Position numbers and translations under genes: made by a program. The notes under the pieces are model-generated. The model saw nothing but the letters and a program-made list of their open reading frames with translations, was not told where the DNA came from and did not search any database. A stretch of DNA of 44,758 bases from a virus, in the IMG/VR virus record IMGVR_UViG_3300020183_000003, positions 1 to 44,758 of that record. One strand, written 5' to 3'. Shown here piece by piece: positions 1 through 44,758 of this stretch (its first letter is position 1; the number at the start of each line of letters is the position of its first letter).

Positions 1-127
1 ATGCTTGTAAAGCGAACGGATCAGCTCGCGAGAACTTTCTTTATCGCGAAGCAGTAGGGAATAGTGATCAAATGCATCTATCCCCTTTTCTTTCAGAAAC
101 TTTCGGACCTCCGGAATCGGTTTTTTG
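1..127. repeat. Terminal direct repeat, left copy (circular overlap)
   Basis: These 127 bases are repeated exactly at 44632-44758. An exact end-to-end overlap of this kind is what an assembler leaves when a circular molecule is cut open. Only across the join does the replication gene acquire its stop codon, which supports circularity. A real terminal repeat of a linear virion genome cannot be excluded from sequence alone. Confidence 0.95.
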
Positions 128-1218
128 CTATGCTCCGCCAGGTCTATCTCAAATTCGAAGCGATCAATATGTCGCAATGGCGACATTTCAACTGTGAAAT
201 TTGGGTCTCGGAGGCTTTTAAAAAGCTTATCCCTTAAGCTATCTTTTAGCGCCTGAATCATCTTCGCCTCTATAAGGCCTTCTGGCGGCACCTTGCCTAC
301 CGGAACACTTTCGCTGGCTAATTCTTCGGCCATTTGGCGAATTTTAAGCCTCTCAGGCTTTGGGAGTGTATGGATAAGCTCCAGGTATTTTTCTCTAACA
401 AACTTTTCAGCTTCCAATAAATCCACTGAAATATCCTGCTGCTTGGATTTCACCTTTTTGGAATTTTGCTTCTTGATGTAAGAGATCATCCCCTTAAAGC
501 TCTTCTTATCCGCCAGTGCCTTATCAATAACCCCTTGGGTGTAGGATTCCGGTGTCGAATCAATTTCGCCAGCCTCCTCTTTGCACTTCACATACTCCTG
601 GATTATCTTTTCTTCTTGCTCACTAAAATTCAACAACGACGACTCTTTATCTATATCTTTATCTATAGCTGTGACATTCGTGTGACATTTTTGTGACATC
701 TCTGTGACATTTTTGTGACATGAAGCTGAAACCAAGTTCCCATCTGGCACAATTTCATGTTCAAAAAGCGTTTGCTGAAAGTTATGTGGATAACCTGTTG
801 ATAAGTCAGTGGCTACTCTTTTATTTCTCACGCGCCATTGTCTCAAACGTGTTTCGTATTTCACCCTCTCGCCAAGATCAACTTCCTGATATCGGTCGTA
901 GTTTGAAATACACAAGCATTCATCGGAATCAACAAAAAGAAGTTCGTACTCTTGCAGTACATTTAAAGAGCTTTCAAAAGTGTGTGCGTCAAAGCGAAAC
1001 CGGCGAGCTATTTGCGGTACGGTCATTGGCTGATAGTCGGTGAGCGCAATCCGGCCGAAGCGATGTAACTTGTGGGCCAATATTAAAAGCTTCACAAACG
1101 CAAGGATATGAAAAAATCCATTTGGCAGCATTTCAATTGCGCAAATTTTTTCGTCATCCAAAAAAGCGTGATACAGCTTAACCCACAAACCGCGAAACTG
1201 CTTTTGATTTTCGCTCAC
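1..1218 (-). CDS. Replication initiator / phage replisome organiser, N-terminal wHTH (continues across the circular join)
   Basis: The reading frame starts at GTG (1218-1216) and continues through base 1 into 44631-44617, where it ends in GEVGE-like residues and TAG, giving about 410 aa. Residues 5-100 (FRGLWVKLYHAFLDDEKI, then a LPNG turn and a helix-turn-helix around QIARRFRFDAHTFESSL) match the N-terminal domain of phage replisome organisers (PF09681 type), which bind the origin and recruit helicase. A low-complexity linker encoded by five 11-bp repeats lies around residues 165-182, as in phages whose origin lies within the initiator gene. The C-terminal half is helical and charged. It is the last gene of the minus early operon and follows the DnaQ-like gene by 9 bp. 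Family assignment is by pattern, not by search. Confidence 0.85.
   Translation of the reverse strand, partial: MSENQKQFRGLWVKLYHAFLDDEKICAIEMLPNGFFHILAFVKLLILAHKLHRFGRIALTDYQPMTVPQIARRFRFDAHTFESSLNVLQEYELLFVDSDECLCISNYDRYQEVDLGERVKYETRLRQWRVRNKRVATDLSTGYPHNFQQTLFEHEIVPDGNLVSASCHKNVTEMSQKCHTNVTAIDKDIDKESSLLNFSEQEEKIIQEYVKCKEEAGEIDSTPESYTQGVIDKALADKKSFKGMISYIKKQNSKKVKSKQQDISVDLLEAEKFVREKYLELIHTLPKPERLKIRQMAEELASESVPVGKVPPEGLIEAKMIQALKDSLRDKLFKSLRDPNFTVEMSPLRHIDRFEFEIDLAEHSKKPIPEVRKFLKEKGIDAFDHYSLLLRDKESSRELIRSLYKH
645..793. other. Predicted replication origin inside the initiator gene
   Basis: Three origin hallmarks lie within 150 bp. Two tandem AT-rich 12-mers (CTTTATCTATAT at 645-656 and CTTTATCTATAG at 657-668) resemble an unwinding element. 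Five phased iterons follow at 670-721. A perfect DnaA box (TTATCCACA on the minus strand) lies at 785-793. This order of AT-rich repeats, iterons and DnaA box is typical of theta-replicating plasmids and of lambdoid origins embedded in the O gene. Function is inferred. Confidence 0.7.
670..721 (+). repeat. Five iterons TGTGACAT, 11-bp period
   Basis: TGTGACAT occurs at 670, 681, 692, 703 and 714, each exactly 11 bp after the last, so all copies face the same side of the helix. They lie within the initiator coding region and encode a repetitive Cys/His/Thr/Ser linker. The likely role is binding of the initiator encoded by the same gene. Confidence 0.85.
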
Positions 1219-3459: not shown

Positions 3460-3706
3460 GATGACCTACCTCCTTAATTAAGTTGTTTGCGTCTACTCCA
3501 CAGGAAACAATAATTGCGCAACAGACAAAGAAGTCGTACTTCTTCAATTTTCTGTTGGCTATTTTTGCTAAAACCCGATGATCAATTGATGCGCCCGTTG
3601 CGACAAAAATTTGGTTACTCAGCTCCATAAACTTGGCCATTTTCTTTTTCGCCATGAAGTCCAAAATTACTTTTGAAAGCGCTTTTTTCAAGTTGTCTGT
3701 TTTCAA
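3440..3706 (-). CDS. First gene of the early minus operon, unknown function (TTG start)
   Basis: An 88-aa protein starting LKTDNLKKALSKVIL and containing a cysteine pair (FVCCAIIVSCGV). The TTG at 3706 was chosen because GAGGTG lies 6 nt upstream and because the diverged duplicate upstream (3757-3872) keeps the same ribosome site/TTG arrangement. A longer ATG form from 3745 has no ribosome site. No family recognised. It is the first gene after the early promoter at 3876-3904. Confidence 0.65.
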   Translation of the reverse strand: MKTDNLKKALSKVILDFMAKKKMAKFMELSNQIFVATGASIDHRVLAKIANRKLKKYDFFVCCAIIVSCGVDANNLIKEVGHHANTSN

Positions 3707-3756
3707 ATATTTCACCTCTTTTTTCCTTAAAGTATGGCACCTCAAAACGCCACACT

Positions 3757-3872
3757 AATTTTTCATCGACACGAAGTCTCAAATTGCTTTTAAAACTGAT
3801 TTCCTTACGTTATCTTTCTTCAAAACTTCACCTCTTTCTTTGTTAAAGTATGGCACTTCGTAGCCCCACACT
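3757..3872 (-). pseudogene. Diverged tandem duplicate of promoter-proximal region and 5' end of the next gene
   Basis: A ~116-bp unit is present twice in tandem: AGTGTGG, then GTGCCATACTTTAA, an AGAGGTGAA ribosome site and a TTG codon. In this upstream copy the frame from TTG at 3823 encodes LKKDNVRKSVLKAI and stops at 3779. The intact copy encodes LKTDNLKKALSKVI and continues. Either it is a decayed duplication or a 14-codon leader peptide in front of the operon. Confidence 0.7.
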
Positions 3873-4324: not shown

Positions 4325-4334
4325 ATCAAGTACC

Positions 4335-4370
4335 GTACCAGGTACCATACCATTGTACGGTACCTGGTAC
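4335..4370. promoter_or_regulatory. 16-bp inverted repeat between HTH and par genes (candidate RHH/parS site)
   Basis: Arms GTACCAGGTACCATAC (4335-4350) and GTACGGTACCTGGTAC (4355-4370) are complementary at 15 of 16 positions with a 4-bp spacer. The arms carry the TACCATAC motif seen at the par centromere. It lies between two convergent genes. It can form a hairpin but lacks a U-tract, so a binding site is more likely than a classic terminator. Confidence 0.7.
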
Positions 4371-4376
4371 TAAAAT

Positions 4377-4748
4377 TTAGAATTCATGCTCCCGACCAAG
4401 CTCTTTTAATCTAGCCCGGACGTTCTTATCAATACCTGCGCAAGCAGCCTCGATTAAAAACTTGGATTTACTTTTTCCGTTCCTTGAAATCAGGTTACCG
4501 TTCACATCCAACTTCGATTGTTCGTGAATCCAGTCCAGCTTTATCATGTATTCTTCGCGAAGTCTCAAATTGAAACCGCGAATCACATCCTGGCGAACGC
4601 CTGGCTTTTTCCAAGGTAGAGGCTCATTGATTCTACGGTCCGCCTCCACTTCAGGCCTATCTTTACCCGCAGAGTTGATAAATTCTTCCGGACTAACAGA
4701 CGGCCCTAATTTTGAGGGCCTTCCCAAACTCATCTTTTCCTTGTCCAC
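4377..4748 (-). CDS. ParG/RHH-type partition DNA-binding protein
   Basis: A 123-aa protein with an unstructured N-terminal half and a C-terminal ribbon-helix-helix-like region: strand GFNLRLREEYMIKLDWIHEQ near residues 58-77, then helices KSKSKFLIEAACAGIDKNV near 93-111. Starts at GTG 4748, preceded by GGAGGTG, overlapping the ParA stop by one base (TAGTG). A ParA gene followed by a small RHH gene is the ParFG-type arrangement. In those systems the RHH protein binds the centromere and represses the operon while its flexible N-terminus stimulates ParA ATPase. Family assignment is inferred from fold pattern and context. Confidence 0.75.
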   Translation of the reverse strand: MDKEKMSLGRPSKLGPSVSPEEFINSAGKDRPEVEADRRINEPLPWKKPGVRQDVIRGFNLRLREEYMIKLDWIHEQSKLDVNGNLISRNGKSKSKFLIEAACAGIDKNVRARLKELGREHEF

Positions 4749-5419
4749 TATTTTTCACCTCCGAAAATTTCTTGATACAATACTTCCATTTCTTGAATAG
4801 CCTTACTTTCTTTCTTTTCCGCTTCGCTAACACCCCTACCCTTATAAATTGAGTTCTTGATGCTGACGCGACGGTGAATTACAGCCTTAGACAACTGTAA
4901 AAGACCCGTCTTATCTTCAAGAATGGCATCCCTGACTTCTTCGTCGTCCTTTATTCTATAATTCGTTTCTGCCATGTTGATGAATGGAAACGCAACAATA
5001 TCAGGTCGAATAGCTCTTGCTTGCTCCAAAATATCTAGTAAACGCGATAAGCCCCAGATGTCAGGAGCTCCCGTTGGAACTGGGGTGTAAAATTTATCCG
5101 CAATGAGTAAAGAAGATCTCAACTCTGGACTGTCATATCCGCCAGCATCAATTATGATGTGATCAAATAATTGGCGCAAATATTGAACCTCATCTCTGAT
5201 TGAAGATCCGTATTTTTGGAACAACGGAATCGACTTTAGATTATCGCCACGCTCTATTTTTGATTGCCGAAGCGCTTGCCAATCTGTCGCACTCCCCTGT
5301 CTATCCGTATCTATGATAACCGTTTTCTTGCCGCGATTTATCGACTCAACGGCCAAATTAACGACCATTGTCGTTTTTCCGGTCCCCCCCTTGGATCCCC
5401 CAATCAACACAACTGACAT
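4748..5419 (-). CDS. ParA-family partition ATPase
   Basis: A 223-aa deviant Walker A ATPase with GGSKGGTGKTT (residues 7-17), a Walker A' segment VIIDTDRQGSA near residue 36, and HIIIDAGGYDS as the Walker B region. It has no N-terminal HTH, so it is the small class (ParF-like, type Ib). ATG 5419 was chosen because AGGAGG lies 7 bp upstream and the protein then begins MSVVLIGGSKGG; an in-frame ATG at 5488 would start inside the operator repeats. It should position replicated molecules at cell division together with the RHH protein. Confidence 0.93.
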   Translation of the reverse strand: MSVVLIGGSKGGTGKTTMVVNLAVESINRGKKTVIIDTDRQGSATDWQALRQSKIERGDNLKSIPLFQKYGSSIRDEVQYLRQLFDHIIIDAGGYDSPELRSSLLIADKFYTPVPTGAPDIWGLSRLLDILEQARAIRPDIVAFPFINMAETNYRIKDDEEVRDAILEDKTGLLQLSKAVIHRRVSIKNSIYKGRGVSEAEKKESKAIQEMEVLYQEIFGGEK

Positions 5420-5442
5420 GCTAATGCCTCCTGTTTTAAATT

Positions 5443-5600
5443 GTGGTATGGTACCACTTAATAAGTACCATACCACTTTCAAACTCAAGAATCAACGGAA
5501 ATAAACACCATACCAGTTTTCTAGTACCACACAACAATACACACCATACAGATGTACCGTATATAGCACCACACCATGGTGCTATACATAGTACCATAAT
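5443..5600. promoter_or_regulatory. par centromere/operator: array of TACCATAC-type repeats
   Basis: Just upstream of parA is a perfect 12-bp inverted repeat, GTGGTATGGTAC (5443-5454) and GTACCATACCAC (5465-5476). It is followed by ACACCATACCA (~5506), TAGTACCACAC (~5522), CACACCATACA (~5541), TGTACCGTATA (~5554), a perfect 10-bp inverted repeat TATAGCACCA (5562-5571)/TGGTGCTATA (5577-5586), and GTACCATAAT (5591-5600). Such clustered short repeats are typical of RHH-bound centromeres. The leftward candidate promoter TTGATT-17-TATGGT overlaps the first inverted repeat, so autoregulation is likely. Confidence 0.8.
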
Positions 5601-5839: not shown

Positions 5840-6670
5840 ATGGCTTTAAATTCATACGTCAAGGTGGATGAAAATTTATTTCGCTTACTCGATGAGAGAG
5901 GGGTAGGGGATGATTTGCAATTGGCCTATATTAGGCTTGCCAGCTTGATCCACACCGCCAATTTTACGGAATTGACAACAGCGCAACTTCAAAAAGTTTT
6001 GCGATGCGGATACAAACGCGTTAATGCCATTTTATCCAACCTGTCACAGGCTGGTCTTGTTCGACTAGCCAAAAGGAATGGTGTCCCAATGCGATTGGAG
6101 TTCCTGTTGGGTGTCTATAAGGGTTACCGAGAATGCGACTTAGGAAAAAGGTCACCTTTGTCCTCTTTACCTAGAAAAGAAAAAGGCTCTATAGAATATA
6201 CACATAGAGAGAAACAACCACAACAAAGTAGTCGTGGTTTTTCATTTGATGCCCAAAAGGTGGGGCTTGCAAAAAAGTACATAGAGCTTTTACAAGAAAA
6301 TGGGGTAGTAATACGCAATTTTCCAAGGTATTTGGAAACAGTGGTACAAGCAAATGATCGCATGGGGACTTGGGATAAATTGCCAGACCAAATTGAAGCC
6401 TTAAACACCCAAATTGAATCGAAAAAGACTGTGGATAAACGCAAAAAATTGATTTTGGAATTTGAGCCCATTGACGATTCATCTTCCGTAGTAACTCCAG
6501 AAAATAGGCTTAGGGCAATAAACACTCTTCTTGACGACCACACCATAATTGGTCAAAAGTTCCGAGAATGGAAACGAAGCGGTGAGGCCTGCACCCCTGT
6601 CATTGAAGCCATGATTTTGAGCAAAACTCTTGAGCTTGAAACAGAAAGGGAGGTGAGGGTAGTATGCTAA
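5840..6670 (+). CDS. Winged-helix replication protein (initiator or helicase-loader candidate)
   Basis: A 276-aa protein. Residues 15-90 form a predicted winged helix, with LTTAQLQKVLRCGYKRVNAILSNL style helices and a wing around VPMRLEFLLG. Residues 105-140 are a polar linker, and the C-terminal half is helical. It overlaps the DnaB start (GTATGCTAA), so it is very likely coupled with the helicase, as helicase loaders and initiators are. Its upstream region carries the minicistron, antisense RNA and palindrome, which is how plasmids control their limiting initiator. No precise family recognised. Since 1-1218 already encodes an initiator-like protein, a loader role is a good alternative. Confidence 0.65.
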   Translation: MALNSYVKVDENLFRLLDERGVGDDLQLAYIRLASLIHTANFTELTTAQLQKVLRCGYKRVNAILSNLSQAGLVRLAKRNGVPMRLEFLLGVYKGYRECDLGKRSPLSSLPRKEKGSIEYTHREKQPQQSSRGFSFDAQKVGLAKKYIELLQENGVVIRNFPRYLETVVQANDRMGTWDKLPDQIEALNTQIESKKTVDKRKKLILEFEPIDDSSSVVTPENRLRAINTLLDDHTIIGQKFREWKRSGEACTPVIEAMILSKTLELETEREVRVVC

Positions 6671-8016
6671 AAAAATCCCACAGAAGGGAATCCTCAATCG
6701 ATATGGATATTCCAAAAAATGATGAGGCTGAAGTAGCCATACTTTGTGCCGCGCTTGGATCAAAAATTTCAGCCGCAAAAATATTCGAGAAACTCAGACC
6801 TGAACATTTCTACAACGACCAAAACGCTACTATTTTTTCGGCAATGTTGAGCTTGTTTCAATCAAATATTGGCATTGATTTGATTACGCTTTCAAACAAG
6901 TTAAAAGGTATTGGCAAATTGGATAGGGTAGGGGGCAATGTCTATCTAGCCGAAATTTCAAATGCCGTACCAAGTTATTCAAACGTGTCTGAGCATATAA
7001 AGATTGTTCAAGATATGGCTTATCGTCGTCACATGATGGATATTGCGAATTCGTTGCTACAAAAGGCTGTGGATGAGGGCGTTGATTTTTCAAAAATTTT
7101 AGACGAGGCAGAGACTAACTTAGTTGCGCTATCAAACAAGCAAATTTCAAATCGGTACAAAAGCGCAAAAGAGGCATTTCACGATTTGTTTGATGAACTG
7201 TCCGATCCGAAGCTGAATACCGCCATCCCAACTGGATACGTAGACCTAGATTCAATTACGGGTGGTTTTAAAAGAGGCACCCTCACCATTTTGGCGGCAC
7301 GTCCTTCCGTTGGTAAAACGACTTTGGCTCTGAACTTTGCTATGAAAGTAGCCGAAACCAAAAAAACTGTTCTGATTTTCAGTTTGGAGATGTCCACATC
7401 GGAGCTTAGTATTCGACTTGCTTCCGGAGATTCAAGAGTCAATTCAGATGTCATGCAGGATCCAAAGGTTTCATCCAGAAAAGAATTCCCTACCATTTTA
7501 AAATCTATAGGGCGACTCTCGGAGCTACCTATTTTCATAGACGACACTGGAGGCATCACTGTTTTGGAAATGAAGTCTATTGCAAGACAGATTCAGTTTA
7601 AGCAACCCATTGACTTGATTATTGTGGATTATCTACAGCTCATGAAGGGTTCTCGTATTGAAACCAGGTTTCAAGAAGTCTCGGAGAACGTCAGAGATCT
7701 TAAAGCTCTGGCAAAGACATTGGATGTTCCAATTGTCGCTCTTTCTCAACTCAGCCGAAACCTCGAAAGCCGGCAAGACAAAAGGCCAATGTTATCGGAC
7801 TTGCGCGAAACAGGGGAGATTGAGCAAACAGCCGATGTGGTCATGTTTCTGCATCGCGATGATTACTTTAAACCGGATCTGGAAGAGGGCTTGAACATTA
7901 GTGAGACAGAGCTGCTCATTCAAAAAAACAGAAATGGTCGCACCGGTAAAATAGATCTCATTTACCGTAGAGACGTTTCAAGATTTGAGTCTAAACAAAG
8001 GGAGTTGAAAGCATGA
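6664..8016 (+). CDS. dnaB: Replicative DNA helicase DnaB
   Basis: A 450-aa hexameric 5'-3' helicase, normal length for DnaB. The N-terminal helical domain lies at about 18-125. The RecA-like domain follows from about 185, with Walker A ARPSVGKTT (212-220), Walker B LIIVDYLQL (318-326), and the arginine-finger region DLRETGEIEQTADVV (379-393). No intein seen. Translation starts at 6664 after GGGAGGTGAGG, overlapping the upstream gene. The element therefore brings its own fork helicase and depends less on the host's. Confidence 0.96.
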   Translation: MLKKSHRRESSIDMDIPKNDEAEVAILCAALGSKISAAKIFEKLRPEHFYNDQNATIFSAMLSLFQSNIGIDLITLSNKLKGIGKLDRVGGNVYLAEISNAVPSYSNVSEHIKIVQDMAYRRHMMDIANSLLQKAVDEGVDFSKILDEAETNLVALSNKQISNRYKSAKEAFHDLFDELSDPKLNTAIPTGYVDLDSITGGFKRGTLTILAARPSVGKTTLALNFAMKVAETKKTVLIFSLEMSTSELSIRLASGDSRVNSDVMQDPKVSSRKEFPTILKSIGRLSELPIFIDDTGGITVLEMKSIARQIQFKQPIDLIIVDYLQLMKGSRIETRFQEVSENVRDLKALAKTLDVPIVALSQLSRNLESRQDKRPMLSDLRETGEIEQTADVVMFLHRDDYFKPDLEEGLNISETELLIQKNRNGRTGKIDLIYRRDVSRFESKQRELKA

Positions 8017-8860: not shown

Positions 8861-8913
8861 AGTATCGTACCATATACAATGTATTATTCAAGGTGTGGTA
8901 TATGGTATGGTAC
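8861..8913. promoter_or_regulatory. par-type operator upstream of gene 8311-8826
   Basis: GTACCATATAC (8867-8877) faces GTATATGGT (8898-8906), immediately followed by ATGGTAC (8907-8913). The half-sites match the TACCATAC/GTATGGTA family of the par centromere although the locus is 3.3 kb away and unrelated in function. Confidence 0.65.
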
Positions 8914-9243: not shown

Positions 9244-10221
9244 TCAAGAAGCGTAGGCGACTTGCTCAAGCTTTTTGTGAAGCAATTCAACATCCTCATC
9301 CCGTTGAATTTCGTCATTGTAGACTTGAAGCATATCGATGCTTTTGTGTCGGGTGAACTTTTGTGCACGGTGAGCAGGTAACACTTTCAAGGTTTCGGTA
9401 GCAAAAAAGTGCCTGAAGCCATGGGTTGAGTTGTCCACACCAAGAAAGCCTAGGAGTTGTTTTACAATTCTCCGAATGTGGCGCGTGGTTAGCCGGCCGT
9501 CTTTGTTTTTGTTTCCGAGACTTAAAAACAGGGGCCCATCACTCACTTTGTTTATGGCAATGTGGTTTTCGATGGCCGACAAGGTTTTTTTGTGAAGCTT
9601 AACGGGCTGTCGATCATCATGACCTTTTCCAAGAACCATCGCAATCCCACGTGAAAACAGGATGTCTTTTTTCGATAAACGCGCAATTTCAACTTGTCGG
9701 AATCCCTCCAGGGCAAGCAAGTGAAATACGGCGTTAAGCCTAGCGATCTGAGGGGTGTTTGGAGCATTTAAAAGGAAAGCGGACATTTTTGAAACTTCTT
9801 CGGCGGAAACACCATCACGCTTGTGAAGCTTTCCCTGCCCAAAACCCCTTATATTTATGGTGATATCCGGTATAAAACCGTGTCTTGCAAGTTCCTTTAA
9901 AAACACGCGCGTTCCTGCAATGTACTTTGATTTCGAAGACACTGACCAATCCAAGCCAGAAACAGCCTCTTTGTACCTCAAGAAGATATTAAGGTCGAGT
10001 GTTTCGTTTTCGCAAAAGTCAAAAAAGTGCCTAACTCTATAAGAGTAGTCCGACCTTGTTTCGCTTTTAACGTCCAGCTCCATAAAAACGGAGTCCGCCT
10101 CGTTCCTGTTTTGCAGAAAATGCGAAAGAATTGTGTTTATCGATTCGACTTCTAACTGTCGTTTTTCGTATAGCCGTCGGTATTTTTCAGCTAACGGGCT
10201 ATCAGGTTTTAAAACAAGCAT
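9244..10221 (-). CDS. Tyrosine recombinase (dimer resolvase or integrase)
   Basis: A 325-aa protein with the full catalytic set: R175 (EGFRQVEIARL), K199 (LGKGHDD), H267-x-x-R270 (THGFRHFFAT), H292 (TRHKSIDM) and Y301 (VYNDE). The N-terminal core-binding domain is around 45-125. Length and layout fit Xer/Cre-like enzymes. With ParA and an initiator present, resolution of dimers at the neighbouring 9175-9206 site is the most economical role. Integration into the host cannot be excluded. No strong ribosome site before ATG 10221. Confidence 0.92.
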   Translation of the reverse strand: MLVLKPDSPLAEKYRRLYEKRQLEVESINTILSHFLQNRNEADSVFMELDVKSETRSDYSYRVRHFFDFCENETLDLNIFLRYKEAVSGLDWSVSSKSKYIAGTRVFLKELARHGFIPDITINIRGFGQGKLHKRDGVSAEEVSKMSAFLLNAPNTPQIARLNAVFHLLALEGFRQVEIARLSKKDILFSRGIAMVLGKGHDDRQPVKLHKKTLSAIENHIAINKVSDGPLFLSLGNKNKDGRLTTRHIRRIVKQLLGFLGVDNSTHGFRHFFATETLKVLPAHRAQKFTRHKSIDMLQVYNDEIQRDEDVELLHKKLEQVAYAS

Positions 10222-10285
10222 GTGACGATCTTAACAAGATTCAAGCGTGAAATGCAAATGATCAGTTTAGACTTTTAGATAAAGT

Positions 10286-10389
10286 TTAGTTATAGATTAG
10301 ATCTAAATTAGTTATAGATTAGACCAATTTGAGTTCAAAACATGGTATTTTCTAGATTTAAAACGGTGTTTTCTAGATTTAAATCTAGA
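10286..10389. repeat. Iteron-like direct repeats and 18-bp palindrome
   Basis: TTAGTTATAGATTAGA occurs at 10286-10301 and 10308-10323 (22-bp period). GGTRTTTTCTAGATTTAAA occurs at 10344 and 10365 (21-bp period). The perfect palindrome TCTAGATTTAAATCTAGA lies at 10372-10389. The gap 10222-10496 holds no gene. Two-turn spacing suggests protein binding on one helix face: regulation of the recombinase gene, recombination accessory sites, or a second origin. Confidence 0.65.
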
Positions 10390-23580: not shown

Positions 23581-23668
23581 GGAGAGATGGCAGAGCGGTT
23601 TAATGCGGCGGTCTTGAAAACCGTTGAACCGAAAGGTTCCGTGGGTTCAAATCCTACTCTCTCCGCCA
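23581..23668 (+). tRNA. tRNA-Ser (UGA)
   Basis: Complete cloverleaf with acceptor arms GGAGAGA and TCTCTCC, discriminator G and encoded CCA (23666-23668). The anticodon loop CTTGAAA gives UGA. A long type II variable arm (GAACCGAAAGGTTCC) is diagnostic of tRNA-Ser. It starts 9 bp after the secreted-protein stop. It may supplement UCA decoding during late expression, or be a remnant of transfer from a host. Confidence 0.96.
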
Positions 23669-39994: not shown

Positions 39995-40975
39995 CTAAAA
40001 CTCATACAAACAGCATTCTCTCTTTCGGTATTTTTTTTCAATTTCGATATACTGATCGTTTGACTCAATTCCCAAATAATTTCTCCGAAGACGAAAAGCT
40101 ACTCGTCCGGTTGTTCCTGAACCCATGAAAGGGTCTAAAACAATGCCTCCCTCTGGACATCCAGCCAAAATACAGGGCTCAATCAATTTTTCTGGAAACG
40201 TGGCAAAATGAGCTTCCGGGAAAGGCTGGGTAGCAACATTCCAGACGGACCTTTTATGCCGACCATTTTCTTGTTGTTCAAATTTAGAAACTTGATCTAA
40301 TTTTGAAAGTCCTTCATGAGTTCTCGAATGTCCTCTACCTTTTCTATGTATCGTTCCATGAGATCCTTTTTCAACGTCCCATCCAGTTGGAACACATCGT
40401 TTTCGTCTTCCATTTACCGATTCGGTAGGATGGCTTTTTACGGAAACACGGTCAAGACGTGATCTCCAATTTTTTTCAGTTGATGCTTCTCGAATAGATT
40501 CATGATCAAAATAATAGTTAGAACTTTTGCTCAACAAAAAGATATACTCATGCGCTTTTGTACAACGATCTTTTACACTTTCTGGCATGGGGTTTGGCTT
40601 AGCCCAAATAATGTCTTGTCGCAGATGCCATCCTGAATCTTGTAATGAAAAAGCAACACGCCAAGGAATTCCAACTAGCTCTTTATTCAAATAGGAATCT
40701 CCGAGATTAAGCCAAAGGGTTCCATTTTTTTTCAAAACTCTTTGTATTTGATCAAAAGTAATTTTTAAATGCTCAACAAAAAGATAAGGTGTTTTTTCCA
40801 TTCCCAAGCAATAAATGGAATCATCCGGCCACTTAACAGGCGTGATTTCGTAGTCCCTAAGTCCCCAATATGGTGGTGAAGTCACACAACAATCTATGCT
40901 TTCATCTGGAAGTGTTCTAAGCACTTCGAGCGCATTTCCATGAATCGTTGAATTAATCGGGTAATTTCCAATCAT
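39995..40975 (-). CDS. DNA methyltransferase, SPPY type (beta class)
   Basis: 326 aa. Motif IV TSPPYWGLRDY near residue 32 precedes motif I DPFMGSGTTG near 287, i.e. beta-class order. SPPY favours N4-cytosine methylation, with N6-adenine possible. The variable region at 170-250 is very basic and probably reads the target. No restriction gene is adjacent, so it is likely a solitary enzyme protecting phage DNA from host restriction. Confidence 0.92.
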   Translation of the reverse strand: MIGNYPINSTIHGNALEVLRTLPDESIDCCVTSPPYWGLRDYEITPVKWPDDSIYCLGMEKTPYLFVEHLKITFDQIQRVLKKNGTLWLNLGDSYLNKELVGIPWRVAFSLQDSGWHLRQDIIWAKPNPMPESVKDRCTKAHEYIFLLSKSSNYYFDHESIREASTEKNWRSRLDRVSVKSHPTESVNGRRKRCVPTGWDVEKGSHGTIHRKGRGHSRTHEGLSKLDQVSKFEQQENGRHKRSVWNVATQPFPEAHFATFPEKLIEPCILAGCPEGGIVLDPFMGSGTTGRVAFRLRRNYLGIESNDQYIEIEKKYRKRECCLYEF

Positions 40976-41913: not shown

Positions 41914-42238
41914 AATTTTTTCTCTTTTTAAAGTGGGTTAATTCAATAAATTTACCATCGTCATTTTTATAATCCATGTTGTGTATTTCAAGAAGCTTAT
42001 CAGCAAAGAGATACTGAAAATAATTCTCGCCTGTTTCCTTGTTTTGAAGACGAAAAATGAAATCAAACTTTTGGTGTTCCACAATCTCTTTTCCATTTAT
42101 TTTTTTGAGATTTTGAACTGTGTTTTTTAACGATGCGTTTTGTGATTTTAGGGTATAAATCTCAATAAATTGAAGCCACGCCAAAAAGGCTGCGGATACC
42201 AAAATCAAAACTGTTAAATATATGGCTGTGAAAATCAC
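41900..42238 (-). CDS. Small membrane-anchored coiled-coil protein
   Basis: 112 aa. N-terminal membrane segment (AIYLTVLILVSAAFLAWL), then a coiled coil (LKSQNASLKNTVQNLKK) and a polar C-terminus. The start overlaps the upstream methylase stop (ATGA); its 3' end overlaps DUF1064. Layout recalls inner-membrane spanin subunits but context is not lysis; unknown. Confidence 0.65.
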   Translation of the reverse strand: MIFTAIYLTVLILVSAAFLAWLQFIEIYTLKSQNASLKNTVQNLKKINGKEIVEHQKFDFIFRLQNKETGENYFQYLFADKLLEIHNMDYKNDDGKFIELTHFKKRKNYDDY

Positions 42239-43536
42239 TTTTTTTCTGCCTCAACTAAGCCATACTTTGTAAAATCAGTGATCGTCTCCCCATTTCTCTT
42301 AACCGTCGGCTGAATATTGTTCTTTTTGCAATAATCGACATACCGCAAAACAATGGCATCACAATAGCGTTCATCAAGCTCAATAGTTCTACAGACACGT
42401 TTGTGTTTTTGGCAGGCAATTAACGTGGTTCCGGACCCTGCAAATGGGTCATAGACCGTATCCCCGCGTTCAGTGTTGTTCAAAATAGGAATCTCCATAC
42501 ACTTAAGCGGTTTCTGTGTACCGTGACCATAGGTTTCCTCTTTGTCCGAGTTTCCAAAGCTGTTGTTATTTTTTATCTGCCAGGTTGTTGCCTGATCCCT
42601 TCTTCCTTGCCAGTTGTGCTTTTCACCTTTTTTGACTGCATACCAGCAAGGTTCATGCTGCCAATGGTAGTCTCCACGACTCATTGCAAAGTGTTGTTTT
42701 ACCCAGATTATTTGGCTTATGATTTCAAAGCCACAATCGATCAAATTTTGCGCGATGGTATAAGTAAGGCGTCCCGCATGCCAAACATACGCTACATTTC
42801 CTTTAAAAAGGCTATATGCCTCAGACCAATCAACTTTATCGTCATTCTTTACTTTTCCATTTGATCTCTTGTCAAACACTATACCAAATTCTTCCCGCCA
42901 TTCTGGATCATACTCCACACCATACGGAGGATCTGTGACCATGAGGAGTGGATTATCACTCCCCATCAACTTATCAACATCAGTTGAGACAGTGCTATCC
43001 CCACAGAAAAGACGATGCTCACCCAATTCATACAAATCTCCTCTGACTGTTTCTGAGGATTTTAACGCCAGTGGGTCTGGAATATCGTCCTCACCTTCGG
43101 ATTCTCCGCCTTCAGAGTCATCGAGCTTAAAATCAACCTCTTCAAATCCCCAGTCAAGAAGTTCAGGGATCTCAAACTCAGCTTGAAGAATCTCCCAATC
43201 CCATTCACCCGTGTTCTTGTTGAGACGGATGTTTAACTCTCGCTCTTTATCCAGAATCAAATCCAGATAAATAACTGGAACCTCAGATTCCCCCATAGCC
43301 CCCCAAACCTTTACGCGTTGATGCCCACCGATAATGACGTTTTCACGATCTTTATTTTTGTTCACAATAATGGGGTCAACAAACCCAAATTCCGTTAGGG
43401 ATTTTTGGATATCCTCGTGTTGTTTTTCAGAAAGTTTCCGAGGATTGTATTCTGCAAATTTTAGATCACTAATTTTAACCCAAACATGCTCTTTGATTCT
43501 ATTTTTTTGTGTTTCTTTTTGCTTTTTCATACCCAC
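42235..43536 (-). CDS. ParB-nuclease-like domain fused to DNA methyltransferase
   Basis: 433 aa. Residues 18-110 form a ParB/Srx-type domain (VKISDLKFAEYNPRKLSEKQ, VIIGGHQRVKVWGAMG). The methyltransferase follows: motif IV TDPPYGVEYD near 200 (DPPY, favouring N6-adenine) and motif I YDPFAGSGTTLIA near 372, beta-class order. This fusion is common in phages, where it modifies phage DNA. An acidic linker (DSEGGESEGEDD) joins the domains. Overlaps the zinc-finger gene by 38 bp. Confidence 0.92.
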   Translation of the reverse strand: MGMKKQKETQKNRIKEHVWVKISDLKFAEYNPRKLSEKQHEDIQKSLTEFGFVDPIIVNKNKDRENVIIGGHQRVKVWGAMGESEVPVIYLDLILDKERELNIRLNKNTGEWDWEILQAEFEIPELLDWGFEEVDFKLDDSEGGESEGEDDIPDPLALKSSETVRGDLYELGEHRLFCGDSTVSTDVDKLMGSDNPLLMVTDPPYGVEYDPEWREEFGIVFDKRSNGKVKNDDKVDWSEAYSLFKGNVAYVWHAGRLTYTIAQNLIDCGFEIISQIIWVKQHFAMSRGDYHWQHEPCWYAVKKGEKHNWQGRRDQATTWQIKNNNSFGNSDKEETYGHGTQKPLKCMEIPILNNTERGDTVYDPFAGSGTTLIACQKHKRVCRTIELDERYCDAIVLRYVDYCKKNNIQPTVKRNGETITDFTKYGLVEAEKK

Positions 43537-44616: not shown

Positions 44617-44758
44617 CTATTCCCCCACCTCATGCTTGTAAAGCGAACGGATCAGCTCGCGAGAACTTTCTTTATCGCGAAGCAGTAGGGAATAGTGATC
44701 AAATGCATCTATCCCCTTTTCTTTCAGAAACTTTCGGACCTCCGGAATCGGTTTTTTG
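44617..44758 (-). CDS. 3' end of the replication initiator gene (circular continuation)
   Basis: From 44757 down to 44617 the frame is the same as 126-1 and continues ...SLYKHEVGE then TAG at 44619-44617. Joined to 1-1218 across the join it gives the full 410-aa protein. It is not a second gene. Confidence 0.95.
   Translation of the reverse strand, partial: KKPIPEVRKFLKEKGIDAFDHYSLLLRDKESSRELIRSLYKHEVGE
44632..44758. repeat. Terminal direct repeat, right copy (circular overlap)
   Basis: Exact copy of 1-127; see there. When the overlap is removed the element is 44,631 bp. Confidence 0.95.

Follow-up and report, generated by a model that had tools for sequence, protein, structure and literature searches.

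A putative replication origin with helix-phased iterons inside the replisome organizer gene of a tailed phage

Does an array of short phased repeats inside a phage gene mark the place where replication begins, and is it the DNA or the encoded peptide that keeps the repeats alike? We addressed this in a record of 44,758 nt, analyzed over its whole length (the window), which represents a circle of 44,631 bp with a 127-bp terminal repeat at the ends of the record. The first-pass annotation had proposed an origin with phased iterons within an initiator gene. This proposal is supported by the PF09681 and PHROG profiles, the layout of related genes, selection at the DNA level, and the precedent of mapped phage origins. 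From sequence and analogy, positions 644-721 are very likely the core of a theta-type origin inside the gene of its own initiator, where the initiator would bind the iterons, the adjoining 12-mers would melt and DnaB would be loaded. The intragenic architecture as such is already known; the window is a new, divergent PF09681 member with same-direction iterons at 11-bp steps.

The array and the gene that holds it

The features of the locus are as follows.

670..677, plus strand: iteron TGTGACAT, copy 1, exact match
681..688, plus strand: iteron TGTGACAT, copy 2, exact match
692..699, plus strand: iteron TGTGACAT, copy 3, exact match
703..710, plus strand: iteron TGTGACAT, copy 4, exact match
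714..721, plus strand: iteron TGTGACAT, copy 5, exact match
644..667, plus strand: two identical AT-rich 12-mers TCTTTATCTATA, candidate DNA unwinding element, encoding IDKDIDKE
785..793, minus strand: perfect DnaA box TTATCCACA, 63 bp from the array; a role is unsupported by relatives
796..804, minus strand: DnaA-like box TTATCAACA with one mismatch, same orientation, 11 bp from the perfect box
1..1218, minus strand: initiator (replisome organizer) gene, main part, by PF09681 and PHROG 4880 profile matches
44617..44631, minus strand: last codons and stop of the initiator gene across the circle joint, from the 127-bp terminal repeat and the 411-aa frame
826..1185, minus strand: Phage_rep_org_N domain, residues 13-132, predicted winged helix-turn-helix (Pfam; pLDDT)
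44632-44758: terminal repeat of 1-127
6664-8016, strand opposite to the initiator gene: dnaB helicase gene, full

The initiator gene crosses position 1 of the circle. Given the 127-bp repeat at the record ends, it runs on to 44617, and its stop codon was read at 44617-44619. The start was likewise read from the sequence as GTG at 1218, which is better placed behind AGGAG; TTG at 1221 is an alternative. The N-terminal 132 residues match Phage_rep_org_N (Pfam PF09681, E 1.2e-16), passing the curated cut-off with 61.2 bits versus 23.3 over profile positions 1-120 of 121, and the replisome organizer family PHROG 4880 matches with E 4.5e-22. By profile, the gene is thereby an initiator. It narrowly missed the cut-off of NCBIfam TIGR01714 (47.3 bits versus 49.8, E 2e-12). 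The protein is only about 18-29% identical to its relatives, and a single-sequence search of IMG/VR returned no close ones. Only the N-terminal domain was recognized in Pfam, with no DnaB_2 (DnaD-like) or Phg_2220_C domain at the C-terminus; these are not a required feature, being found in only 8 and 9 of 34 PF09681 members, respectively. In the structure model, the N-terminal winged-helix domain is predicted with confidence (pLDDT about 87-97 over residues 21-110), the linker is disordered (residues 149-199; pLDDT 31-42 over residues 151-200) and the C-terminal half is helical. A fold search with this model returned generic winged-helix regulators only, all weak (E above 0.04), and a search of solved structures by sequence gave no convincing match.

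The linker is where the repeats lie. Five TGTGACAT words occupy 670-721 in perfect 11-bp steps, with exact matches at 670, 681, 692, 703 and 714, just as the first-pass annotation had stated. The two AT-rich 12-mers that it placed directly beside them are present at 644-655 and 656-667, adjoining the iterons, and its perfect DnaA box within 65 bp was found at 785-793. TGTGACAT is the only exact 8-mer of the window with at least four copies at a constant step of 8-30 bp, and no comparable array arose in 30 copies of the window generated by a first-order Markov model. All eight core columns are invariant and all three spacer columns vary. CRP sites (TGTGA-N6-TCACA) were ruled out, as all five words run in the same direction. 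The other three TGTGACAT words of the window coincide with the start codons of three structural genes (29904, 33899 and 37680), which share GGAG(G/T)AAAA(C/A)ATGTCACAA, a common ribosome-binding and start context.

By analogy with known systems, we infer that the initiator binds the repeats, melts the AT-rich DNA and takes part in helicase loading, and that the locus is used as an origin. The N-terminal winged-helix domain would bind the five iterons at 670-721, which, at about one per helical turn, would present one face of the DNA and allow a nucleoprotein filament or wrap to form. This structure could strain and melt the adjoining 12-mers at 644-667, and the helical C-terminal half of the initiator may help to load the phage DnaB helicase.

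Lambda, SPP1 and pSK41 are established examples of an origin placed within the gene of its initiator. In SPP1, gp38 binds direct repeats inside gene 38 at oriL, beside an AT-rich DUE (PMC6316719), and by this published layout the window is alike, with tandem repeats and an AT-rich tract inside a replisome organizer gene. SPP1 differs in having oriR and a separate helicase loader, gp39, whereas the window has one array; no helicase loader was recognized in it, and dnaB lies about 6 kb away on the other strand. The ori-lambda likewise has iterons and an AT-rich tract in the middle of gene O, which are read through as protein (PMC7466680), but the window initiator has no match to the lambda O family in Pfam or PHROGs, and the iterons differ. 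In pSK41, four Rep boxes lie midway in rep and are bound by the N-terminal winged-HTH domain of Rep, whereas the ori-coded central segment forms a linker that the protein can do without (PMC5703833). The predicted winged-HTH domain and central ori-coded linker of the window protein resemble this arrangement, but there is no match to RepA_N PF06970 in Pfam at E 0.1, and the sites differ.

A GTNAC pattern in the linkers of PF09681 relatives

Related genes were compared in a sample of 40 non-redundant PF09681 genes, chosen by similarity to the seed alignment and leaning to Bacillota. The named relatives come from phages and phage-like plasmids, for the most part of Staphylococcus, Streptococcus, Listeria, Enterococcus and Bacillus. 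In 32/40 genes, the linker held three or more GTNAC half-sites within 72 nt, a density that the parts of the gene before and after the linker reached in 1/40 and 2/40, respectively; owing to shared ancestry, these counts are not independent events. Neighboring half-sites of the same direction were 10-12 bp apart in 44/52 cases, and opposed neighbors 5-7 bp apart in 66/73. Two of the eight exceptions, L239 and L290, carry an HNH-like endonuclease domain inserted in the linker, and the site cluster and AT-rich tract are displaced behind it. The remaining six show, by eye, variant repeats (TAACG, TGACG, GTCAATGAC and GTCGTCTGAC). The order in the linker of relatives is the same as in the window, namely DNA-binding domain, repeat cluster and AT-rich tract.

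The initiators of Listeria A500, Streptococcus SM1 and Enterococcus phiEf11 have a homologous PF09681 N-terminal domain. In Bacillota phages, repeats of the GTAACGTTACA type occupy this part of the gene, with GATAAAGATATAGATAAAGA-like DNA after them. The likeness of these linkers to that of the window lies in GTNAC half-sites and then GATAAAGATATA-like AT-rich DNA. Most of these initiators have opposed GTAAC/GTTAC or GTGAC/GTCAC pairs, in contrast to the five same-direction sites at 11 bp in the window, and no shared C-terminal domain was recognized between them and the window protein. Same-direction sites were found in two further PF09681-domain genes, one with four GTCAC sites in 11-bp steps (L313, from L025) and one with seven GTCAC sites 10-11 bp apart (L315, from L017).

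The latter mostly alternates 11 and 10 bp, averaging close to the 10.5-bp helical turn, and as a result its peptide repeats every 7 codons (VTDMSQD, VTDESQS, VTDMSQG). In Veillonella sp. VA139 (L067/L314), the PF09681 frame stops immediately before a TGTCACA 11-bp array with AT-rich repeats; the iterons lie just outside the gene, not inside. The rep of TP901-1 was set aside, as it showed no obvious relationship and had no such sites in its linker.

On balance, we slightly favor a general rule in which PF09681 organizers carry the origin in their own linker, with GTNAC sites at half-turn spacing when opposed and full-turn spacing when in the same direction, followed by an GATATAGATAAAGA-like melting tract; the window would be a divergent, purely same-direction 11-bp member. 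If true, the position and specificity of the origin could be read from the predicted linker peptide (NVT/CH/MSQ/DVTSRD/SHVT, then IDKDIDKE), the origins of such phages could be located from sequence alone, and specificity-swap tests between relatives would become possible. No account of the GTNAC rule turned up in the open-access papers that our search covered. The rule is a more interesting by-product than the window case.

The DnaA box did not generalize. Although the first-pass annotation was right that a perfect box is present, a box occurs in only 2/40 PF09681 linkers; DnaA dependence was rejected as a family feature and is unsupported for the proposed origin.

The same iterons could bind the initiator and yet act as an autoregulatory operator or a replication roadblock rather than a start site. 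There is a precedent in SPP1, whose second gp38-bound repeat cluster, oriR, has been proposed to stall forks and trigger the switch to concatemers (PMC6316719), and the window array sits in the middle of a transcribed gene. However, it is the only array of its type in the window, which leaves no other site of that type to serve as the origin, and no sigma-70-like promoter was found in 1-2500. Furthermore, the array has an AT-rich tract directly beside it, as known origins do, and in 32/32 relatives tested the 60 nt past the iterons are AT-richer than the gene. We therefore regard an operator or roadblock as improbable and retain the intragenic origin as the preferred reading.

Other candidate replication sites in the window

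The first-pass annotation had named a GC-skew switch at the array as a check of the origin. No switch was found there: negative skew extends around the circle from about 38.6 kb as far as 6 kb, and the change of sign near 6 kb coincides with a change in gene direction. The skew follows gene direction and gives no support for or against an origin at the array. Several features do speak against the origin reading, among them the low identity of the initiator to its relatives and its lack of a recognizable DnaD/DnaB_2 C-terminal domain. The initiator gene is also some 6 kb from dnaB and on the opposite strand, and a separate gene for a winged-helix-like protein of 276 aa (5840-6670) overlaps dnaB. 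This gene could encode a second initiator or a helicase loader, which makes 5.4-8.0 kb a second candidate replication locus, and two origins are possible.

In this alternative, the working origin would lie at 5.44-6.67 kb, where the winged-helix-like protein would bind GTACCATAC-type repeats at 5446-5599, leaving the PF09681 array as a relic or an additional origin. The clustering of GTACCATAC-like sites there, the overlap of 5840-6670 with dnaB, the skew sign change near 6 kb and the existence of two-origin phages such as SPP1 are all consistent with it. However, the 276-aa protein has no replication-family match, and no relative of it was found. In addition, GTACCATAC-type sites also occur at 4330-4363 and 8862-8913, by other genes and around the ParA gene, a distribution that fits a partition site or operator better. 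We give an origin at 5.44-6.67 kb little credence beside the array within the initiator gene.

The GTACCATAC-like sites, 16 with at most one mismatch versus 3.5 expected, are clustered at 4330-4363, 5446-5599 and 8862-8913. The ParA gene (4748-5488) and its small partner (4377-4748) lie amid them. Since the sites surround ParA and another gene as well, they are more likely a candidate partition site or operator of a phage-plasmid.

The alternative named by the first-pass annotation (10286-10389), an origin in the AT-rich repeat region 10275-10389, does have 11- and 21-bp AT-rich repeats, but it sits just upstream of the integrase gene (9244-10221), in a place where one would expect arm sites for the recombinase, has no adjacent initiator gene and does not match the family iterons, and we consider it very improbable. 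This region, whose repeats come with TCTAGATTTAAA palindromes and which borders the tyrosine integrase gene on its upstream side, more likely serves recombination, as candidate arm sites or attP.

The other genes of the window are those of a tailed phage, including a baseplate J-like gene. Terminase matches were broad, and a terminase-led search for sister phages reached only the broad family, with about 45% identity at best. The portal is closest to those of cyanobacterial and proteobacterial phages and ParA to those of proteobacterial plasmids, and from these affinities the host is probably Gram-negative. The window looks like a divergent PF09681 member in a phage whose structural genes appear Gram-negative. 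Other observations were a DNA methylase with an N-terminal ParB_N domain (42235-43536), a second methylase (39995-40975), a tRNA-Ser with anticodon TGA (23581-23668), and a 51-bp direct repeat, 80% identical (3706-3756 / 3822-3872), which comes with GTGCCATAC words and is located within and next to the start of a small gene.

One DNA word in three reading frames

Read along the coding strand, the iteron is ATGTCACA. A step of 11 bp does not preserve the reading frame, so the copies shift frame in turn (2,1,0,2,1) and encode CH, NVT, MSQ, CH and NVT, giving the linker peptide SCHKNVTEMSQKCHTNVTA-IDKDIDKES. One DNA word is thus kept in three frames, for which selection on the peptide cannot account. 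Synonymous codon choice points in the same direction: linker codons in the PF09681 family are biased to ATA, with an odds ratio of 7.4 (p 8e-19), and to CAC, with an odds ratio of 6.6 (p 3e-5), statistics that, given shared ancestry, do not represent independent events, and this bias indicates that selection acts on the DNA. Furthermore, synonymous codon shuffles usually failed to recreate the linker site clusters of relatives. The earlier proposal that DNA function constrains the protein is therefore borne out, both by the one word in three frames and by the family-wide codon bias. Here DNA function clearly overrides protein sequence, with a single 8-bp word held in three reading frames.

The array could instead be a by-product, either of recent tandem slippage of an 11-mer, which does create short tandem arrays, or of selection for a Cys/His-containing peptide, and TGTGACA 11-bp arrays are also found outside genes in many genomes; yet this is hardly credible, as spacers diverged and cores did not (all four internal changes fall in spacers, P 0.0018 if changes were random), peptide selection cannot keep three frames identical, and relatives whose peptides differ have the site cluster too.

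A literature search for TGTGACA iterons returned nothing. A collection scan for TGTGACA(N4) x3 gave 52 viral and 89 genomic stretches. Most such arrays in public genomes lie outside long genes, so the TGTGACA word alone is not diagnostic. Viral arrays in the middle of long gene-like sense frames were found in L017, L025, L043 and L040. The frames of L017 and L025 are both PF09681, that of L043 matches a PHROG for replication initiation / replisome organizer, and that of L040 had no family match. At least six of the TGTGACA 11-bp arrays (L064, L073, L091, L095, L123 and L131) lie at separate places on a single Dehalococcoidia chromosome, OY282365.1.
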